Source: Acidobacteriota bacterium (lineage in GTDB: Bacteria; Acidobacteriota; G020349885). Taken from it: 64,000 bases of DNA. The DNA is taken from contig CP070701.1 of the NCBI GenBank assembly GCA_020349885.1, positions 115,120 through 179,119 on the forward strand, given 5' to 3'. The position numbers and the translations under genes were made by a program. Positions 2,636-37,929 of the stretch are shown piece after piece. Numbering within the stretch: position 1 is the stretch's first letter; each line of letters opens with the position of its first letter. The notes beneath the pieces are model-generated. The model had not been told where the DNA came from. It did not search any database and was given only the letters and a program-made list of their open reading frames with translations.

Positions 2636-3715
2636 ATGAAAACGCCCGCATCACGCATAGCGGGCTACGACCTCGCCCGGGCGCTCGCCATCATGGGCAT
2701 GGTGGCGGTGCATTTCCGGTTGAAGATGGACGCCTACGAGGTCGGCCCGGACTGGCTCGCGTGGCTGGCGAACCTCATCGACGGCCGGGCGGCCGCGACG
2801 TTCGTCGTTCTTGCGGGCGTGGGAATTTCCCTGATGTCGCGGCGCGCGAGGGAGGAAGGCGACGCGCAGGCCCTGCTCCGCACAAGAAACAGGCTGCTCC
2901 GGCGCGCGCTGTTCCTCTTCGTCGTCGGGTACGCCTACGCCCCCATCTGGCAGGGCGACATCCTGCACTTCTACGGGGTCTTCCTGGCGGCCGGGGCGTT
3001 CCTGCTCGCGGCCCCGGGCCGGGTGCTCTGGCGCATCGCGGGCGCGCTCACGGTCGGGTACGTCCCGCTCGTTTTCGTTCTCGATTACGACTACGGCTGG
3101 GACTGGGAGACGCTGTACTATCACGGCTTCTGGACGCCGAAGGGGCTCGTCATGCACCTGTTCTTCAACGGGGTAAGCCCCGTGATCCCCTGGCTGGCCT
3201 TCCTGCTGGTCGGCATGTGGCTCGGGAGGCAGGACTTATTCAATCCGGCGGTGCGCAGGCGGATCCTGGTGCGTGCCGCGTCCGTCGCCCTCGCCGCCGA
3301 GGCGGTCTCGTCCCTCCTCGTGCACAGCTTCGCGACCGGCCCGGAGGACTATGAGGTCATCGCCGTGTTCGGCACCTGGTCCATGCCCCCGTTGCCGCTC
3401 TACATGCTCGCGGGCGGAGGAACGGCCATCGCCGTCATCACGCTCTGCGTGGCGTTCGCCCGGAGTCACCCCTCGTCGAAGCTGCTCGCCCCCATGGTCG
3501 CGGCCGGGCAGCTGGCCCTCACGCTGTACGTCGGCCACGTCGTCGTGGGCCTGGGCGCCCTGAACGCCGTCGGGCTCCTGAAAAAACAGCCCCTGCCGTT
3601 CGCCCTCGGGTGCGCGCTCGTCTTCTGCGCCCTCGCGGTCCTGTTCGCCTACGCGTGGAGACAACGGTACGAAAGGGGCCCCCTGGAATGGTTCATGCGG
3701 AAGGTGACGGGATAG
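2636..3715 (+). CDS. DUF418 / heparan-acetyltransferase-like membrane protein, copy 1
   Basis: Polytopic inner-membrane protein of 359 residues. It opens with RIAGYDLARALAIMGMV, the first helix typical of the DUF1624/HGSNAT-type acyltransferase fold. It ends in FAYAWRQRYERGPLEWFMRK, the C-terminal signature of the DUF418 (YeiB-like) family. About nine or ten hydrophobic segments are visible. Family members are thought to move acyl groups or small molecules across the membrane, but substrates are unknown. The ATG at 2636 is chosen because both duplicate copies are conserved from exactly this codon; the open frame upstream is non-hydrophobic and not homologous. It stands alone with its copy, with no obvious pathway partner. 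Confidence 0.8.
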   Translation: MKTPASRIAGYDLARALAIMGMVAVHFRLKMDAYEVGPDWLAWLANLIDGRAAATFVVLAGVGISLMSRRAREEGDAQALLRTRNRLLRRALFLFVVGYAYAPIWQGDILHFYGVFLAAGAFLLAAPGRVLWRIAGALTVGYVPLVFVLDYDYGWDWETLYYHGFWTPKGLVMHLFFNGVSPVIPWLAFLLVGMWLGRQDLFNPAVRRRILVRAASVALAAEAVSSLLVHSFATGPEDYEVIAVFGTWSMPPLPLYMLAGGGTAIAVITLCVAFARSHPSSKLLAPMVAAGQLALTLYVGHVVVGLGALNAVGLLKKQPLPFALGCALVFCALAVLFAYAWRQRYERGPLEWFMRKVTG

Positions 3716-12439: not shown

Positions 12440-13612
12440 ATGGAAAATACGGGCACGCGAAGAAGTCCGGAAATACGGGGCGGGGCGAGCTTTCCCGGGC
12501 AAGGCGGCGCTGCCGGGGCTCCCGCGGCGGGCCGGCTTGAGGCCAAGGACCTCAGCAAAGTTCACGGCGAAACGACGGTCATCCGCCGGCTTTCCATCGA
12601 AATCCTGCCGGGGGAATTCTTTACGGTGCTCGGGCCGAGCGGGTCAGGAAAAACCACCTTGCTGCTGATGATCGCGGGTTTCGTGAAACCAACGGGCGGC
12701 CGCTTGTTTCTCGACGGCGAAGACGTCGCGCCCCTGCCGCCGCATCGGCGAGCCATGGGGATTGTCTTTCAGAATCTGGGCCTATTTCCCCACCTGAGCG
12801 TTGCGGGCAACGTCATGTTCCCGCTGCGGATGCATGGGGTCTCGCGGACGGAGGCCCGCAAGCGCGCCGAGGCGATGCTGGACCGCGTGGGCCTTTCGGC
12901 CTTCTCGGAGCGCAGGCCCCACACGCTGAGCGGAGGCGAGCAGCAGCGCGTCGCCCTCGCGAGGGTTCTCGTGCATCCTCCCAAGGTGCTCCTGATGGAC
13001 GAGCCGCTCGGCTCCCTGGACCCTCCCCTGAGGGAGGAGCTTCAAAAAGAAATTAAGAAAATTCATCGGGAGTACAGGCTGACGGTCTGCTACGTGACGC
13101 ACAACCGCGACGAGGCGCTTCGTCTCTCCGACCGGATTGCCGTGCTGCATGCCGGCGAAATCGTGCAGGTGGGCGCGCCGGCGGATCTGTACTATCGGCC
13201 GAATACCGCGTACGTGGCAAAATCGCTCGGGGAGGCGAACTTCATTCCCGCCACCGTGACGGACCGCGGCGGGGACACCGCATTGCTTGAGCTCCCCGGC
13301 GGACAGTCCGCGGTGGTGCCCGGCGACGCCGTTCCGAAGGAAGGCGGCCGTCGACTTCTCGCGGTCGTTCGTCCCGAGCAGGTTCTCATTCAATCCGCGG
13401 AAAACGCGCCGGAAGGAGGGAAGCCCGGGTGGCGCGGCCGCGTGGAAGAGATTGCTTTTTACGGCGGGCACAAGCGCGTGCTCGTGCGCACGGAAGGGGG
13501 GCTTCGAATCGTTGCAAGCTGCCAGGCCCAGACGCCCCTGCCGGCGGAGCCTTCCGTGTGGGCCGGCTTCGCCTCTTCCGCCGTGCATCTGATTCCGAAA
13601 AATTCCGAATAA
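12440..13612 (+). CDS. potA: polyamine-type ABC transporter ATP-binding protein
   Basis: ATPase of an importer, 390 residues. Walker [10 protein letters not shown] starts near 65, Q-loop [13 protein letters not shown], signature [15 protein letters not shown], Walker [14 protein letters not shown], and H-loop [16 protein letters not shown]. The C-terminal quarter ([10 protein letters not shown] to SAVHLIP) is the TOBE/OB-fold regulatory region of PotA/CysA-type proteins. The first 30 residues are a Gly/Ala-rich extension not usual in the family, but no later start precedes the ABC domain. It leads the operon potA-potD-potB-potC, with the next ATG immediately after its stop codon. Spermidine/putrescine specificity is inferred from the operon's family, not proven. 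Confidence 0.88.
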
Positions 13613-16552: not shown

Positions 16553-16581
16553 TTGGCATGCCCCCCGTTTTCGGCTATAAT
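16553..16581 (+). promoter_or_regulatory. strong sigma70-type promoter of the polysaccharide locus
   Basis: TTGGCA (16553-16558), a 17-base spacer and a perfect TATAAT (16576-16581). The predicted start is near 16588, about 20 bases before the ATG of the NusG-like gene. It is among the best promoter matches in the window. No ops or JUMPstart element was recognised downstream of it. Confidence 0.75.
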
Positions 16582-16606: not shown

Positions 16607-17116
16607 ATGTACGTCTCGCTGAGTGACGAACAGCCCCGCTGGTGCGTGGTTAGGACGAAGCCGAGGTGGGAAGAGCGCGTTGCCGCCCGCCTCGAGGCCG
16701 AAGAAATCTCGTCCTACGCGCCCAAGTTTGTGCGGAAGGAGCGCTACGAAAAGCCCAGGATGCTCTTTCCGGGCTACGTCTTCGTTCAGCTTGCGCCCCG
16801 CGACTGCGTTGAGCGGATGCGGTGGTTCCCCGGCGTTCGCCACACGCTCTCGCAATCGACGCTGGTCGCGGCCCTCGACGACGAGGACGTGCAGGAAATT
16901 CGCGGGCGCGAAAACGGCGAGGGCGTTATCGAGATTCCCGTTCCCCCGCTGCGGGCGGGCGAGCGGGTTTGCGTTGTAGAAGGACCGTTCGAGGGCCTGG
17001 AGGGGTTGTTCGAAAGGTACATGACGGGCGCGGAGCGCGTGCAGATTCTTCTGAGGCTGCTCGGCGCGCTGCGCCACGTCGAATTGCCGCGGCGGTCCGT
17101 GATGGCCGCGGCCTGA
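16607..17116 (+). CDS. NusG-family specialised antiterminator (RfaH/UpxY-type)
   Basis: 169 residues. The NGN domain (RWCVVRTKPRWEERVAARLE, then LFPGYVFVQL) binds RNA polymerase and the C-terminal KOW-type domain begins AGERVCVVEGPFEGLEG. Length and sequence match RfaH-like paralogues rather than housekeeping NusG, which lies beside secE/rplK and would end differently. Such paralogues let polymerase read through very long polysaccharide operons. Position supports this: first gene after a strong promoter, followed by some 45 kb of same-strand glycan genes. The start codon is fixed by the promoter and by the conserved N-terminus. Whether it acts here is inference. Confidence 0.8.
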   Translation: MYVSLSDEQPRWCVVRTKPRWEERVAARLEAEEISSYAPKFVRKERYEKPRMLFPGYVFVQLAPRDCVERMRWFPGVRHTLSQSTLVAALDDEDVQEIRGRENGEGVIEIPVPPLRAGERVCVVEGPFEGLEGLFERYMTGAERVQILLRLLGALRHVELPRRSVMAAA

Positions 17117-17209: not shown

Positions 17210-18283
17210 ATGGACGTTCTCGTAACGGGCGGGGCGGGCTTCATCGGCTCCAATTTCGTCCGCCACTTGCTGGCCCGTACGCGCGCCCATCGCGTGGTCA
17301 ACCTCGATAAGCTCACCTACGCGGGCAATCTGGAAAGTCTGAAGGACGTCGAGGCGCGCTGGGGGGCTGGGGCGAAGCGGCCGCGCTACGCCTTCGTCCG
17401 GGGCGACGTCTGCGACGGGGCGCTCGTGGAGCGCCTGCTTTCGGGAAAATGGAAGGCCGCGCGCTGGAAGCCGCGGCCCGTCGGGGCCGTCTTCCACTTC
17501 GCGGCGGAAAGCCACGTGGACCGGAGCCTCCGCGACGCGGCGCCGTTTCTTCGCACGAACGTGGTGGGCACGCACGCCCTCCTCGAGGCGGCGCGCCGCG
17601 CGCCCGCGCTGCGACGGTTCCTTCACATCTCGACCGACGAGGTCTACGGCTCGCTCGGGCCGCGGGGGAAGTTTTCCGAAAAGAGCCCCCTTGCGCCGCG
17701 GAGCCCCTACGCCGCGAGCAAGGCGGCGGCGGACCTGCTCGTCCAGGTCTACGTGCACACGCACGGCGTTCCGGCCGTCATCACGCGCTCCTCGAACAAC
17801 TAGGGCCCGTACCAGTTTCCGGAGAAATTCATTCCCCTGATGGTGACGCGCCTTGCGAAGAATCGAAAAATTCCCGTCTACGGCCGTGGGCTGAACGTCC
17901 GCGATTGGCTTTACGTGGAGGACCACTGCGAGGCGCTCATGAAGGCGTTCCGGAAGGGCGGGGTGGGGCGCGTCTACAACATCGGCGGGCGGTGCGAGCG
18001 CCGCAACATAGACGTCGCCCGCCGGGTGCTGCGCATAATGGGAAAACCGGAGTCGCTCTTGCGCTTCGTGGCGGACCGCCCCGGGCACGACTTCCGCTAC
18101 GCGCTCGACGTGCGGAAGGCGGAGCGGGAGCTGGGGTGGAAGCCTAGGACGTCGTTCGCCGTGGGGCTGCGGAGGACCGTTGAGTGGTACGAGGAAAATT
18201 CCTCCTGGATCAAGCACGTCGCGTCGGGGGCCTACCGGAAGTATTTTAAAGAGATGTACGGCTGGCGGGGCATGAACCTTTGA
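17210..18283 (+). pseudogene. rmlB: dTDP-glucose 4,6-dehydratase interrupted by an amber codon
   Basis: Converts dTDP-glucose to the 4-keto-6-deoxy sugar used for rhamnose and related sugars. The frame is continuous over 357 codons except for TAG at 17801-17803 (codon 198). It lies in the conserved RSSNN-Y-GPYQFPEKFIP motif, exactly where Tyr (TAC or TAT) is expected. Before it are the NAD site TGGAGFIGS (6-14), STDEVYG (141-147) and YAASK (Tyr167, Lys171). After it the whole C-terminal substrate domain is intact and in frame. One base change therefore splits the gene: a recent nonsense mutation, a sequencing error or suppressed amber. TAG is used as a normal stop elsewhere here. Without readthrough the 197-residue product lacks the sugar-binding domain. 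Confidence 0.85.
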
Positions 18284-18400: not shown

Positions 18401-20422
18401 ATGAAGAAATTAAAAAAACTCGCTATTGCAGCAGGCTTCGTTCTGGTCGTTTTCCTGATGGTCTTCTTTTTGGTTGCCTATTTCTTGGGCGGGACCGCCT
18501 TGATGTCAGCGGCACATTTTGGTCAGACAAAGGCGGTGAAGTTCTGGATTGCTGCGGGCATGGACGTGAACGCGAAGGACGAAGACGGCCGGACCGCCCT
18601 GATGGCTGCGGCGGATAGGGGCCATGCGGAAACGGTGGAGGCTCTCATTGACGCGGGCGCGGATGTGAGCGCGAAGGACAAAGACGGCCGGACCGCCCTG
18701 ATGCTTGCGACGTTGGCCGCTTTGCGATCGGAGTTATTAATAAGCCGCACCGACCACGCGGTTGCCCTGATGAAGGAGGCATACAAGGGCTATCCCGTTG
18801 CGGTGAAGGCCCTAATTGATGCGGGCGCGGATGTGAACGCGAAGGATGAAAACGGCCAGACCGCCCTGATGTTTGCGGCATGGAAGGGCCACGCAGATAT
18901 GGCGAAAGCCTTGCTTGAGGCGGGGGCGGACGTGAGCGCGAAGAACAAAGACGGCCTGACCGCCCTGATGGCTGCTGCACAGGAAGGCCACACCGAGATG
19001 GTGAAGACCCTGATTGCCGCGGGGGCGGACGTGAACGCGGAGGACAAGGACGGCGTGACCGCCCTGATGGCTGCGGCACAGGAGAGTCACACCGCGACGG
19101 TGAAGGTTCTGATGGACGCGGGCGCGGACGTGAACGCGGAAAACGAAGACGGCATGACCCCCTTGATGCTTGCGGCATGGATGGGCGGCGCCGAGACGGT
19201 GATAACCCTGATTGAGGCGGGGGCGGGTGTGAACGCAAGACACAATGACGGCCAGACCGCCCTGATGGGGGCCGCGCGGAAGAGCCACACCGGGACGGTG
19301 AAGGTTCTGATTGATGCCGGCGCGGACGTGAACGCGGAAAACGAAGACGGCGTGACCGCGCTGATGCTTGCAGCACGGGAGAGTCACACCGGGATTGTAA
19401 AGGCCCTGATTGAGGCGGAGGCGGACGTGAACGCAAAGGCCGAAGACGGCGCGACCGCCCTGATGGGGGCGGCATTCGAAGGTTACACCGAGACAGTAAA
19501 GGCTCTAATTGACGCGGGCGCGGACGTGAACGTGGAGGATAAAGACGGCAAGACCGCCCTGATGATTGCGGCGCTGGGGGGCCACACCGGGATTGTGAGG
19601 ACCCTGATAAGGGCGGACACGGACGTGAACGCGGAGGACAAAGACGGCGTGACCGCCCTGATGCGTGCGGCACAGGAGAATCACGCCGGGATTGTGAAGG
19701 CCTTGAGAAGGGCGGGCGCGGACGTGAACGCGGAGGACAAAAACGGCCAGACCTCCCTGATGTTTGCGGCAGAGAAGGGCCACACCGAGGCCGTGAAGGC
19801 CCTGATAAGGGCAAGAGCGGACGTGAACGCGGAAAACGAAGACGGCGTGACCTCCTTGATGCTTGCGGCATGGATGGGCGGCACCGAGACGGCGAAGACC
19901 CTGCTTAGAGCGGGTGCCGACGTAAACGTGAAGCCCAAAGACGGCTGGACTGCCCTGATGGGGGCGGCATTGGGGGGCCACATCGAGGCGGTGAAGACCC
20001 TGATTGAAGCGGGCGCGGACGTGAATGCGGGAGACAAAGACGGCCGGACCGTCCTGATGGCTGCGGCACAGGAGAGCCACGCCGGGATTGTAGAGGCCCT
20101 GATTGCCGCGGGGGCGGACGTTAACGCGAAGGCCGAAGACGGCGTGACCGCCCTGATGGGGGCAGCGTTCGAGGGCCACATCGAGGCAGTAAAGGCTCTG
20201 ATTGCAGCGGGCGCGGACGTGAACGCGAAGGACAAATACGGCGAAACCGCCTTGATGGCCGCAGCACAGGAAGGCCACACCGAGATGGTGAAGGCCCTGA
20301 TTAATGCGGACGCGAACATGAACGCGAAAAACAATGACGGCGTGACCGCACTGATGTGGGCGACAAAAGGCGGCCACACTGAGATTGTAGAGTTCCTCGA
20401 ACGGGCCGAAGCAGGGGAATGA
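18401..20422 (+). CDS. membrane-anchored ankyrin-repeat protein (19 repeats)
   Basis: 673 residues. After a basic start (MKKLKKLAIAAG) one membrane helix covers about 10-28. The rest is 19 ankyrin repeats of 33 residues with consensus DG-TALM-AA-GH-E-VKALI-AGADVNA; only repeat 3 carries an insertion (around ALRSELLISRTDHAVALMKE). DNA repeats are also close (about 99 bases), so the array may expand or contract by recombination. There is no enzymatic domain. The helix plus basic N-terminus predicts a periplasmic, membrane-tethered solenoid for protein binding. It sits between rmlB and the first polymerase-like gene, in the same orientation, but a role in glycan assembly is only inferred from position. 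Confidence 0.85.
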   Translation: MKKLKKLAIAAGFVLVVFLMVFFLVAYFLGGTALMSAAHFGQTKAVKFWIAAGMDVNAKDEDGRTALMAAADRGHAETVEALIDAGADVSAKDKDGRTALMLATLAALRSELLISRTDHAVALMKEAYKGYPVAVKALIDAGADVNAKDENGQTALMFAAWKGHADMAKALLEAGADVSAKNKDGLTALMAAAQEGHTEMVKTLIAAGADVNAEDKDGVTALMAAAQESHTATVKVLMDAGADVNAENEDGMTPLMLAAWMGGAETVITLIEAGAGVNARHNDGQTALMGAARKSHTGTVKVLIDAGADVNAENEDGVTALMLAARESHTGIVKALIEAEADVNAKAEDGATALMGAAFEGYTETVKALIDAGADVNVEDKDGKTALMIAALGGHTGIVRTLIRADTDVNAEDKDGVTALMRAAQENHAGIVKALRRAGADVNAEDKNGQTSLMFAAEKGHTEAVKALIRARADVNAENEDGVTSLMLAAWMGGTETAKTLLRAGADVNVKPKDGWTALMGAALGGHIEAVKTLIEAGADVNAGDKDGRTVLMAAAQESHAGIVEALIAAGADVNAKAEDGVTALMGAAFEGHIEAVKALIAAGADVNAKDKYGETALMAAAQEGHTEMVKALINADANMNAKNNDGVTALMWATKGGHTEIVEFLERAEAGE

Positions 20423-22308: not shown

Positions 22309-23675
22309 GTCGCAAAGCGCTGTTTTCCGCGGCGGTTTTGCTGGGCGTCGCGGCGGCGGCTTACGCGGTCGTTGCCGATGCATGGGCACACCATCTGGGA
22401 CGCAAGCACTTTGTCGCAGGGGAGCAGGACGTTTCGGAGGAGCACCATGCCAAGCTGCGGCTTGCCTCGCGGCTGGCTCCGTGGGACGGGGTTTTAAAAA
22501 AGCGGGCGTCGGACCTTGCCTTTGCTTTCGGAGAGAATCGTCCTCGCGAGAGATTCGAATGGTGGCAAGAGGCGGAGCGCGGCTACGTGCGGGCGTGGCG
22601 GCAAGCGCCGGGGCACTATCTGACGGCCTGGGCCCTTGGCGATATGGCCTTTCGGGCGGCACCGGAAGTCATAGCCCCATGGCATCAGGGCTACGGCGCC
22701 GCCGTGGCTTTATTTCCCGTCCACTCCGTGCTCCGGAAAGAGTTTGCCATCCGGCTCTGTGAAGCTTCCCTGGTGCTCACGGAGCACGGCGATTTCCCCG
22801 GGGCCAGGCAACTTCTGCGGGAATCGGAGCGGCTAATTCGCGTCGCGTTCTGGCAAACGCTTGCGCGGGGAGCGCTCTGGCTGGCGGAGAGGGCAGGCGA
22901 GGAGGACTGGACGCTTTTTCGAAAAGCTCTCGACGAAGTGGCTCAGGCGTCAAAGCAGGAATCCGACGCTCTCCAGCTGAAGGCGAAGGAATTTTTCCTC
23001 AAAGAGGCGCGGAAAGCCGTGGCGCTTGAGAAATGGGAACAAGCCAGGCGGTGCTTTGACCTGGCGGGGGTCTGCAGCCCGCAGATTGCACCCTATTTGC
23101 GCTGGCTGGATACCCGGTATGCGGCGCATCGGGAAAAAATTTGGGGCGGGAAACCATATGTTACTTTAGAAGATTTTGAAACCCAGCCGGTGCTGCGTTT
23201 TTGGCGCGGGGGATGGCGTGACGCGGAAGTCAAGGCGCGCCGCATCTCGCCTCCCGGCTACCGGAGTTCCCGAAGTGAAGAGGTGCTTATTCAACATCAA
23301 GTTGAGGATTCTCAATGGCGGGCGTATTGGAAGTCCGTTGACGTTCGACTCTTTCCGGAAGACCGTGTTCGCCTCGTCGCTTATGTGCGTATGGAGGGGG
23401 AATGCGCTTTGCCGGCGATTTTGATGCTTTACGTGCGTCTCAAGTTTCCGGAAAAATGGATAGGCTCTCCTGCAAGCGGGCCTGAGGCTGACGAAGACGC
23501 AGGAGGCGGCTGGAGACGTGTTGAGTTGGAGGATGTCGTAGGGGGTTTGACCGAGCGGCATGTTACCAACCGCGAGGAGCCGCTAAAGTACGTCAAGATT
23601 TTCTTTTGTGGAGTTGCCGTCCGTGGGCATTGCCCCGCCGTGCGTGTGGATGCCCTGGAGGTGCACCTGATCTAG
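22305..23675 (+). CDS. exported protein coupled to the polymerase-like gene
   Basis: 456 residues, not assigned to a named family. One N-terminal hydrophobic segment (ALFSAAVLLGVAAAAYAVV) suggests a signal anchor. Residues about 30-270 are helical and TPR-like (KLRLASRLAPWDGVLKK, EARKAVALEKWEQARRCFDLAG). The last 180 are beta-rich, like a carbohydrate-binding or galactose-binding-type fold (VTLEDFETQPVLRFW, VRLVAYVRMEGECALPAILMLY). TPR plus beta-sandwich fits a periplasmic partner of the polymerase whose stop codon it overlaps (ATGA). That pairing is inference from coupling. Confidence 0.6.
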   Translation: MSRKALFSAAVLLGVAAAAYAVVADAWAHHLGRKHFVAGEQDVSEEHHAKLRLASRLAPWDGVLKKRASDLAFAFGENRPRERFEWWQEAERGYVRAWRQAPGHYLTAWALGDMAFRAAPEVIAPWHQGYGAAVALFPVHSVLRKEFAIRLCEASLVLTEHGDFPGARQLLRESERLIRVAFWQTLARGALWLAERAGEEDWTLFRKALDEVAQASKQESDALQLKAKEFFLKEARKAVALEKWEQARRCFDLAGVCSPQIAPYLRWLDTRYAAHREKIWGGKPYVTLEDFETQPVLRFWRGGWRDAEVKARRISPPGYRSSRSEEVLIQHQVEDSQWRAYWKSVDVRLFPEDRVRLVAYVRMEGECALPAILMLYVRLKFPEKWIGSPASGPEADEDAGGGWRRVELEDVVGGLTERHVTNREEPLKYVKIFFCGVAVRGHCPAVRVDALEVHLI

Positions 23676-23677
23676 CG

Positions 23678-25696
23678 ATGTGCGGGATCGCGGGAATCTT
23701 TAAATTTCGGAAAGGCGATGCCGAGATTACGGAATCACTTTTGGAGCGCATGCGAGACACCATGGTGCATCGCGGCCCCGACGGCGCCGGCGTGTGGCGC
23801 TCCCCGGACGGCCGGGTCGGGCTGGCGCACCGGCGGCTGAGCATCGTTGACCTTTCCGAAGCGGGCGCCCAGCCCATGGCCAGCGCCGACGGCGCGCTTT
23901 GGATTGCCTATAACGGCGAGGTGTACAACCACGCTGAGCTTCGAACCGAGCTCGAGGCCGGAGGTTACCGCTATCGGTCGCGTACGGATACCGAAACCCT
24001 ACTCTACGCCTACGACCGATGGGGCCTCGAGTGCGTGCGTCGTCTTCAAGGGATGTTCGCCTTCGGCTTGTGGGACGCGCGCAGGAGGCGTCTCTGGCTT
24101 GTCCGCGACCGCATCGGCATCAAGCCCCTTTACTACACCTTCACGGGCGGCCAGGTGTTGTTTGCCTCCGAGATCAAGGCGCTGCTTGAGCATCCGCAGG
24201 TTTCGCGCGATGTGGACCCGACGGCACTGTATCACTATATGACGCTCTACACCGCGCCGGCGCCGCTCACCATGTTCAAGGGGATCTACAAGCTGCCCGC
24301 CGGGCATGCCATGGTGGTTGAGGAAGGCCGGGATCCACGCGTTTACCACTACTGGGATCCCATCGTGCCCCGCGAGCGCTTCGAGCGGGCATTTCGCGAG
24401 TCGGGGGAGCCGGGCGTCGAGGCGTACTGCACGAAGGAAATCCGACGCCTTCTGTCCGAATCCATCGAGAAGCGCATGATGAGCGACGTGCCGTTCGGCG
24501 TGTTCCTGAGCGGAGGCATCGACTCGAGCACCAACGTGGCTCTCATGGCGCGCCTGATGGACCGCCCCGTGGACACCTTTACCGTCGCGTTTAAGGACAA
24601 TCCGCAATACAACGAACTGGAATACGCGCGCCGCATCGCCCGCGAGTTCAAAACGAACCATCACGAGGTTCTCATTGGCGAGAGCGACCTTCTGGAGTAT
24701 CTTCCGGACCTCATCTACCACCAGGACGAGCCGATCGCCGATCCCGTCTGCGTGCCGCTCTATTATGTGTCGAAGCTCGCGCGCGACAACGGCACCATAG
24801 TGATTCAGGTGGGGGAGGGAAGCGACGAGCAGTTCTGTGGCTACCCGTGGAACGTCATCTTTCAGCGGATACATGAAGGCCCCTGGAAGTGGTTCCGCAG
24901 GCTGCCGCGGGCGGTGCGCGTCCCGGCGGCGCATATGGCGCTGCTTGCTTCGCGTTCGCGCTGGACGGGAAGGCGGTGGATGCCCGCGTTTGGCGCCGAA
25001 CTCGCCATGCGGGCGGCCTACGACCAGGAATTATTCTGGGGCGGCGCCATTGCTTTCCTGGAAACCGCCAAACAGCGCTACGTGAACAAGGACGCGTTCG
25101 GGAATGGGGTCACGGTGCCGTATTTTCAGGGCTTGGGAGATTCTTTTCTCGGCAATCATCAGCACCTCTCGTCGGCCACGGTGGTCGGAGCCCTCGCCGA
25201 CCATCTGCGCCGCGAGAAGCCGGAAGCCGATTTCCTGGAGCAGATGATTTATATGGAGCTCAAGCACCGCCTGCCGGAGCTTCTGCTCATGCGCGTGGAC
25301 AAGATTACCATGTCCACATCGGTTGAGGCCCGCGTTCCGTTCCTCGACCACGCGCTGGCCGAGTTCACCATGAACATTCCGCCGGCGCTCAAGATTCATC
25401 ACGGGGAAACGAAGCACATCCTCAAGAAGGCCGTCGAGGGCCTGATTCCCAACGACATCATCTATCGGCGAAAGCAGGGCTTCGCCGCGCCGGTGGACGC
25501 CTGGATGGACACGGAGCTTGGTCGGGAGATGCGCCATACGTTTCAAACGACGCGGTTTCGGCGGCGGGGCTTTCTGCGCTTCGACCGCGTGGACGCCGAG
25601 ATGAAGGGGCCCTCTTCGCGCCGCGACAGTTCCGCGTATTGGATTTTGTTCAACTTCCTGAAGTGGTACGACCGCTGGATTGAGGGGCAGACGTAA
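23678..25696 (+). CDS. asnB: glutamine-dependent asparagine synthase-like amidotransferase
   Basis: 672 residues with two domains. The N-terminal Ntn glutaminase begins MCGIAGIFKF, so Cys2 is the nucleophile, and includes RGPDGAGVW and YNGEVYNHAEL. The C-terminal synthetase has the PP-loop FLSGGIDSS near 275 and VEARVPFLDHALAEF. It starts 2 bases after the previous stop; a longer frame upstream lacks family similarity and would destroy the Cys2 requirement. In polysaccharide loci such enzymes often amidate sugar acids or glycan substituents rather than make free asparagine; that is inference. A second, more canonical copy lies at 36040-37929. One change stands out: the usual GGDGGDE appears here as GEGSDEQF. 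Confidence 0.85.
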   Translation: MCGIAGIFKFRKGDAEITESLLERMRDTMVHRGPDGAGVWRSPDGRVGLAHRRLSIVDLSEAGAQPMASADGALWIAYNGEVYNHAELRTELEAGGYRYRSRTDTETLLYAYDRWGLECVRRLQGMFAFGLWDARRRRLWLVRDRIGIKPLYYTFTGGQVLFASEIKALLEHPQVSRDVDPTALYHYMTLYTAPAPLTMFKGIYKLPAGHAMVVEEGRDPRVYHYWDPIVPRERFERAFRESGEPGVEAYCTKEIRRLLSESIEKRMMSDVPFGVFLSGGIDSSTNVALMARLMDRPVDTFTVAFKDNPQYNELEYARRIAREFKTNHHEVLIGESDLLEYLPDLIYHQDEPIADPVCVPLYYVSKLARDNGTIVIQVGEGSDEQFCGYPWNVIFQRIHEGPWKWFRRLPRAVRVPAAHMALLASRSRWTGRRWMPAFGAELAMRAAYDQELFWGGAIAFLETAKQRYVNKDAFGNGVTVPYFQGLGDSFLGNHQHLSSATVVGALADHLRREKPEADFLEQMIYMELKHRLPELLLMRVDKITMSTSVEARVPFLDHALAEFTMNIPPALKIHHGETKHILKKAVEGLIPNDIIYRRKQGFAAPVDAWMDTELGREMRHTFQTTRFRRRGFLRFDRVDAEMKGPSSRRDSSAYWILFNFLKWYDRWIEGQT

Positions 25697-36039: not shown

Positions 36040-37929
36040 ATGTGCGGCATTGCAGGCTGGATCGGCGCCTATCCCTCTTCCTCTCGGCATGAGGCGGAGC
36101 GGGCGCTGCGCGCCATGGGCGACGCGCTCCGCCATCGCGGGCCCGACGACAGCGGTTTCTACCTGGACGAGCACGTAGCGCTGGGACATCGGCGCCTCAG
36201 CATCATTGATCTTGGGGGAGGGCACCAGCCCATGTGGAGTGCGGACGGCGCCGCTGGCATTGTCTTCAACGGAGAGATTTACAACTTCCTTGAGTTGCGC
36301 CCCGAACTCGAACGCAAAGGCTACCGCTTTCGAACGCGCTCCGATACCGAAGTGCTGCTTTACCTCTACCTTGAGTACGGGGAAAGCATGCTCAGCCGCC
36401 TGAACGGCATGTTTTCTTTCGCGCTCTGGGACGCGCGAAAGCGGGAGTTGTTTGTGGCGCGCGACCGCATGGGCAAGAAACCCTTCTACTACGTGCGGAA
36501 GAACGGGACGTTTCTCTTTGCTTCGGAGCTCAAAGCGCTTTTGAAGCATCCGCTCGTGTCGCGTGACGTGGACCGGGTTGCGCTCACGAGGTATCTCGCC
36601 CATGAATACATTCCCGCCCCCCATTCCATTTTTCAAGACATCCGGAAATTGCCCGGAGGCTGCGCGCTCAAGGTTTCCGTGGACGGTTTTCGAATTCAAA
36701 ATTATTGGCCGTGCCCGTTTGGCGAAGACGGGCGGCACGTGGACGAGCGGGAGGTGATGGACCGCCTCCGGGAGCTTCTGCGGGACGCCGTGGCGAAGCG
36801 CCTCATCAGCGATGTTCCCCTGGGCGTCTTTTTGAGCGGCGGCATCGATTCGAGCACGGTGGTCGCCATGATGGCCGAGCTTGTCCCGCCGGAGCGGATC
36901 GAGACGTTCTCCATCGGATTCAAGGAGCGCTCGTACGACGAGTCGCGGTACGCACGCACCGTAGCCGATCATTTCGGCACTAATCATCACGAGGAGGTTC
37001 TTCATCCGCGGCGCATGCTCGAAATTCTTCCCGATGTGGTGGAGCGTCTGGATGAGCCGTTCGCCGATCCTTCCATCGTGCCTACGTACCTTCTTTCCGG
37101 GTTGACTCGCCGCTACGTGACGGTCGCGCTGGGAGGCGACGGGGGAGACGAATTGTTTGCCGGCTATCCTACTTTTTTGGCGGAGAAGATAGCCCGCTGG
37201 TATGAGAAATTGGTGCCGCCGTTTTTGCACCGACAGTTGGAGGCGTGGGTGGGGCGGTGGCCGCCGTCGCTCTCCAACTTCAGCTTGGACTTCAAGGCCA
37301 AACGCTTTCTTGCGGGGATTCCTTATTCCGAAGAGACCCGGCATCAAGTCTGGATGAGTGCTTTCTATCCCAAGATGCAGGCGGAGTTGTGGAACGAGGC
37401 CGATGGACAGCTTGAATGGGTGTATCGCGCCTTGGGAGCCTACGGGGATGAAGTTCCGAGTCGCGACGCGTTGCAGCGCTCTCTCTACATCTATTACAAG
37501 GGATATCTTCAGGACGACATTCTCGTCAAAGCGGACCGGGCAAGCATGATGCATTCCTTGGAGGTGCGGGCGCCTTTTCTGGACGTGCGCGTCGTCGAGT
37601 ATGTGAGCCGCCTGCCGGCGCGCCTTAAACTGCGGGGCAAAACCACGAAATACATTCTTAAGAAAGCCATGCGCCGCCGGCTGCCTGACAAGATTCTTTA
37701 TCGTTCCAAGAAGGGTTTCGGCATTCCTACTGGAAAGTGGTTCAAGGAAGATCTCCGCGAATATCTCCGGGACGTGCTCTCGGAGAAGCGGATTCAGAAA
37801 CTTGGCTTTTTCCACCCGCCGTACGTATCGCGCCTCGTGGAAGAGCATATTTCCGGCAAGCGCGACTGGCGCAAGCCTCTCTGGGCGCTCTTCATGTTTG
37901 AGCTTTGGCGCGAGAGGTGGCTCCGATGA
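36040..37929 (+). CDS. asnB: asparagine synthase (glutamine-hydrolysing), canonical copy
   Basis: 629 residues. MCGIAGWIGA gives Cys2 as glutaminase nucleophile; RHRGPDDSGFY, FNGEIYNFLELR and RSDTEVLL are family motifs. The synthetase half has FLSGGIDSSTVVAMMAEL, LGGDGGDELFAGY and DRASMMHSLEVRAPFLD, all intact. Length is normal for AsnB-type enzymes, and this copy keeps motifs that the other locus copy (23678-25696) alters. It may make asparagine or amidate a glycan acid. It overlaps the next gene by ATGA and follows a 97-base gap, where ATATAAAATG precedes the start. Confidence 0.88.
   Translation: MCGIAGWIGAYPSSSRHEAERALRAMGDALRHRGPDDSGFYLDEHVALGHRRLSIIDLGGGHQPMWSADGAAGIVFNGEIYNFLELRPELERKGYRFRTRSDTEVLLYLYLEYGESMLSRLNGMFSFALWDARKRELFVARDRMGKKPFYYVRKNGTFLFASELKALLKHPLVSRDVDRVALTRYLAHEYIPAPHSIFQDIRKLPGGCALKVSVDGFRIQNYWPCPFGEDGRHVDEREVMDRLRELLRDAVAKRLISDVPLGVFLSGGIDSSTVVAMMAELVPPERIETFSIGFKERSYDESRYARTVADHFGTNHHEEVLHPRRMLEILPDVVERLDEPFADPSIVPTYLLSGLTRRYVTVALGGDGGDELFAGYPTFLAEKIARWYEKLVPPFLHRQLEAWVGRWPPSLSNFSLDFKAKRFLAGIPYSEETRHQVWMSAFYPKMQAELWNEADGQLEWVYRALGAYGDEVPSRDALQRSLYIYYKGYLQDDILVKADRASMMHSLEVRAPFLDVRVVEYVSRLPARLKLRGKTTKYILKKAMRRRLPDKILYRSKKGFGIPTGKWFKEDLREYLRDVLSEKRIQKLGFFHPPYVSRLVEEHISGKRDWRKPLWALFMFELWRERWLR

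Follow-up and report, generated by a model that had tools for sequence, protein, structure and literature searches.

A single in-frame TAG in an otherwise conserved rmlB gene of an Acidobacteriota draft assembly: consensus error or recent mutation?

Results

An in-frame stop within rmlB

The rmlB gene in the 64,000-base stretch of DNA analyzed here (the window) has a single TAG codon in the middle of its reading frame. Does the living cell carry this stop, and if it does, is the codon read as a stop or as an amino acid? The scaffold that contains the window is 2,398,617 bases long and belongs to a 2.4-Mb genome that is 95.3% complete. The frame and its two parts are as follows.

17210..18283, + strand: rmlB (dTDP-glucose 4,6-dehydratase) frame with one TAG inside, 357 codons; identified from its TIGR01181 match, its PDB relatives 6bi4, 1g1a and 1bxk, and its translation
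17210..17803, + strand: upstream open part of rmlB, 197 codons; NAD-binding Rossmann part with T-D-E, YxxxK and Asn196
17804..18283, + strand: downstream part of rmlB; substrate-binding domain with Arg231 and Asn266

The TAG, at 17801-17803 on the + strand, is codon 198 and is in frame with the ATG at 17210; the natural stop of the frame is the TGA at 18281-18283. Masking the TAG gives a 357-residue product that matches TIGR01181, the equivalog model for dTDP-glucose 4,6-dehydratase, at 443.9 bits (cut-off 365.1), in an alignment that spans model positions 2-320 of 321, and the RmlB structures 1g1a and 6bi4 align over nearly the whole product. This is not a chance frame; the uninterrupted frame expected of an RmlB is broken at codon 198. 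The stop falls in the motif RSSNN-*-GPYQFPEK, where both structures have Tyr. We compared 109 relatives, some of the same phylum and some of other lineages: 96 have Tyr here and 13 have Phe, and none has any other residue. The first-pass annotation had described an isolated amber codon inside an otherwise intact rmlB, and the in-frame TAG, the model score and the aromatic residue in every relative all bear this out.

We considered whether a TAG at codon 198 might be common to relatives, and rejected the idea. In L020 and L021 the 'one TAG' flag marks a stop close to the C-terminus (query position 353), and L032, the third flagged relative, has no stop in its alignment.

Conservation on both sides of the stop

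In an alignment of 108 relatives, rmlB keeps 73 of the 74 columns that are at least 95% conserved, the sole departure being a conservative I-to-L change. After the TAG, all 31 highly conserved positions are kept. Before the stop, residues 7-13 (the SDR glycine motif), T142-D143-E144, Y167, K171 and N196 are conserved; after it, so is the substrate-binding domain, R231 and N266 included. The product has both the [ST]DE...YxxxK motif, the catalytic motif of RmlB (PMC8987622), and the nucleotide-sugar contacts Asn196, Arg231 and Asn266 (PMC12136496), which agrees with the earlier claim that the catalytic residues before the stop and the substrate domain after it are intact. Third-position GC remains 0.86 after the stop, and there is neither an indel nor a second stop. 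The rest of the gene looks to be under full selection; the lesion is therefore isolated, and either young or not real.

A product ending at residue 197, without the substrate-binding domain, would not be expected to work. The only possible restart of the open reading frame after the TAG is an ATG at 17840; we rejected a functional split gene by this route, as the fragment would be without the catalytic half.

TAG as a stop codon in this genome

The first-pass annotation had raised the possibility of an amber-suppressor tRNA. None of the 48 Rfam tRNA hits in this genome (95% complete) has a CUA anticodon. ARAGORN typed all but one of these hits, the untyped one being a broken tRNA-Gly(TCC), and no UUA anticodon occurs among those typed. 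There is a single tRNA-Tyr, with anticodon GTA, and a search of the genome gave no match to PylS of the pyrrolysine system. Release factor 1 is intact (515.6 bits, with its GGQ and PxT motifs present), as is tgt (439 bits). In 783 coding segments, covering about 1.28 Mb, the terminal stop is TAG in 298, TGA in 278 and TAA in 207. TAG is a normal stop in this genome, and suppression or recoding of the rmlB TAG is strongly disfavoured. ARAGORN also predicted a selenocysteine tRNA (TCA) at L047:2192-2291 on the - strand.

Pathway partners and neighborhood

A search for other rml genes, proposed in the earlier annotation, found no second rmlB above the RmlB cut-off in the 95.3% complete, gapped genome. 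Four other SDR epimerase/dehydratases were rejected as rmlB, with 142-170 bits against a cut-off of 365. Because the genome is 95% complete and gapped, a second copy may be absent from the assembly. The same search found rmlD intact elsewhere in the genome (289 bits, cut-off 224), along with candidates for the remaining steps: a 244-residue RmlA-like nucleotidyltransferase (244 bits to TIGR01207, below cut-off, and 190.7 bits to PF00483) and, also elsewhere in the genome, an RmlC-like cupin (PF00908, 51.8 bits).

Two features lie upstream of rmlB.

16553..16581, + strand: sigma-70-like promoter match ahead of the antiterminator gene, 11/12, a consensus match only
16607..17116, + strand: NusG paralogue (RfaH/UpxY/LoaP-like antiterminator) directly upstream of rmlB, PF02357 50.4 bits

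The NusG paralogue, which also matches TIGR01955 (61.3 bits) and NF033644 (60.0 bits), both below cut-off, is probably the first gene of the transcript. Downstream of rmlB come an ankyrin-repeat gene and then a long run of glycosyltransferase, O-antigen ligase and sugar-nucleotide genes. The ankyrin-repeat protein (window 18401-20422), between rmlB and the O-antigen ligase gene, is made up mostly of a 99-base repeat, present in 15.7 copies. Two asparagine-synthase-like (AsnB-type) genes are found in a polysaccharide cluster, at window 23606-25696 and 36040-37929.

Other interrupted genes and assembly faults

We scanned about 1.28 Mb, about half of the genome taken as stretches, for in-frame stops using a codon model with a power of about 63%, and inspected the results by eye. 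Internal stops were found in three genes of this sample: rmlB, the dihydrolipoyl dehydrogenase gene lpdA, and a probable EamA transporter, a rate of two to three interrupted genes per about 740 scanned. In a first sample, rmlB alone had an internal stop among the genes covered by reference proteins. The lpdA gene (L182:2775-4184, + strand), the only dihydrolipoyl dehydrogenase gene in the genome (TIGR01350, 532.8 bits, cut-off 408.8), has an isolated in-frame TAA at 3324 (G000:C1:563324), in GGG-*-IGLELG. The site is Tyr in 1ebd and Ala in 2eq6, and is less constrained than that in rmlB. The third gene (L190:12551-13456, - strand), probably an EamA-family transporter, has one TAG at 13241-13243, near codon 72 of its open stretch. 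A further candidate, L188:19405, is a normal gene end. There were no frameshifts in 39 genes with good homologues. Separately, two groups of neighboring large open reading frames (G000:C1:1215353-1223443 and 1620811-1629653), each frame about 530-570 codons long with a Rossmann start of the FAD type, match lipoamide dehydrogenase weakly and look like expanded paralogues.

Gaps of 100 Ns interrupt the scaffolded assembly, five of them in 484 kb; the rmlB stretch is without Ns. The only tRNA-Gly(TCC) (L198:9876-9945; G000:C1:1824876 onward) keeps its first ~43 bases and has lost its 3' half, which a pattern search did not find. The break is followed by about 570 bases of lower-GC sequence and then by a 100-N gap (L198:10489-10588). 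GGA codons are common in the genome, and because the cell uses them so freely, the broken tRNA is unlikely to be its true state, unless the assembly lacks a further copy.

Weighing the explanations

We infer that the rmlB TAG is a wrong consensus base in a scaffolded draft assembly, with a probability of roughly 55%. The base would be a miscall or one contributed by a minority strain; the living cell would then probably encode an aromatic residue at codon 198 and is predicted to make a normal dehydratase. The isolation of the lesion amid such complete conservation favors this reading, as does the fact that the sole rmlB-grade gene is hit while rmlD is intact and candidates for rmlA and rmlC remain. 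The sole copy of lpdA bears the same kind of lesion, which would be expected to be costly, and this argues for a technical cause; the gaps and the truncated tRNA-Gly(TCC) show that the assembly has other faults. However, the tRNA fault differs in kind, being a junction rather than a base change, there are no frameshifts in the 39 genes checked, and no Ns occur near the stop. Moreover, for all three stops to be random base errors, about one base in every 6.5-10 kb would have to be wrong, a high figure for an assembly with good coverage, and a real recent mutation therefore stays a strong rival. Under that explanation, the sequenced strain genuinely acquired the nonsense mutation, and very recently; translation would end after residue 197 and the substrate-binding domain would be lost. 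A recent event would look like this, a single-base nonsense change in a gene with no other decay. Surface-sugar genes are often lost in nature, and two to three interrupted genes per about 740 is not abnormal for bacterial genomes. On the other hand, rmlD, useless without the RmlB product, is intact, and the parallel lesion in lpdA points to a cause shared by both genes that is technical. We consider a recent mutation a serious possibility, somewhat less probable than the base error.

Readthrough, in which a suppressor or near-cognate tRNA-Tyr inserts Tyr at the TAG and full-length RmlB is made, draws some support from the two clearest stops, the TAG in rmlB and the TAA in lpdA, both of which lie at sites where Tyr is the usual residue or a common one. 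Of the single-base routes to a stop, 18.8% start from Tyr codons, and two of two would arise by chance about 3.5% of the time; in V. cholerae, queuosine-free tRNA pools (tgt mutant) raise UAA and UAG readthrough (PMC11703503). Yet this coincidence was spotted only in hindsight, with n=2. Neither a CUA nor a UUA anticodon occurs among the typed tRNAs, and the genome has only one tRNA-Tyr, no PylS, and intact RF1 and tgt; TAG and TAA end 298 and 207 of the 783 coding segments. We regard readthrough as very improbable, and still more so its particular form in which UAG and UAA at some Tyr positions (those in rmlB and lpdA) would be read as Tyr by a near-cognate mechanism while also serving as normal stops. 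Least probable of all is an old pseudogene with a long-fixed stop. Mean identity to relatives does drop slightly, from 0.552 before the stop to 0.516 after it, but the drop is within the range of intact relatives (16th percentile for this measure), and because conservation after the stop is complete, long-standing decay is disfavoured; the undiminished third-position GC and the single lesion likewise speak against it. Of the decay, assembly error and suppressed amber offered by the first-pass annotation, suppression is strongly disfavoured and decay of long standing disfavoured, which leaves an assembly error or a very recent mutation.

Implications

If the cell really carries the stop, dTDP-4-keto-6-deoxyglucose and rhamnose-type sugars would not be made, unless an unassembled second rmlB exists. 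The loss of dTDP-4-keto-6-deoxyglucose stated in the earlier annotation agrees with the lack of a second rmlB in the assembly, but follows only on that condition. The case matters mainly for annotation: rmlB and lpdA should be flagged 'one in-frame stop, possibly erroneous', and should not be taken as evidence that rhamnose synthesis or 2-oxo-acid dehydrogenase function has been lost. Should the stops prove real and full-length proteins be found, the two genes would become a test case for stop-codon readthrough at Tyr sites.

Comparison with known systems

The window gene resembles RmlB/RfbB/RffG (TIGR01181; 1g1a, 1bxk, 6bi4) in its full-length homology, glycine motif, TDE, YxxxK, two-domain layout and the positions of Asn196, Arg231 and Asn266, and differs in having TAG in the NN-Y-GP motif. 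It is not part of an rmlABCD cluster, its partners being scattered in the genome. With amber suppression and recoding (supF-type tRNA, the pyrrolysine system, reassigned UAG) it shares an in-frame TAG at a conserved sense position; in contrast to those systems, no suppressor tRNA or PylS was found here, RF1 is intact and TAG is a normal stop. It also resembles single-nonsense pseudogene calls in draft genomes, which share one isolated in-frame stop, a gene otherwise conserved and a gapped scaffold assembly, and from which nothing specific sets the window rmlB apart. The feature is ordinary, a lone stop in a gene that is in other respects unremarkable.
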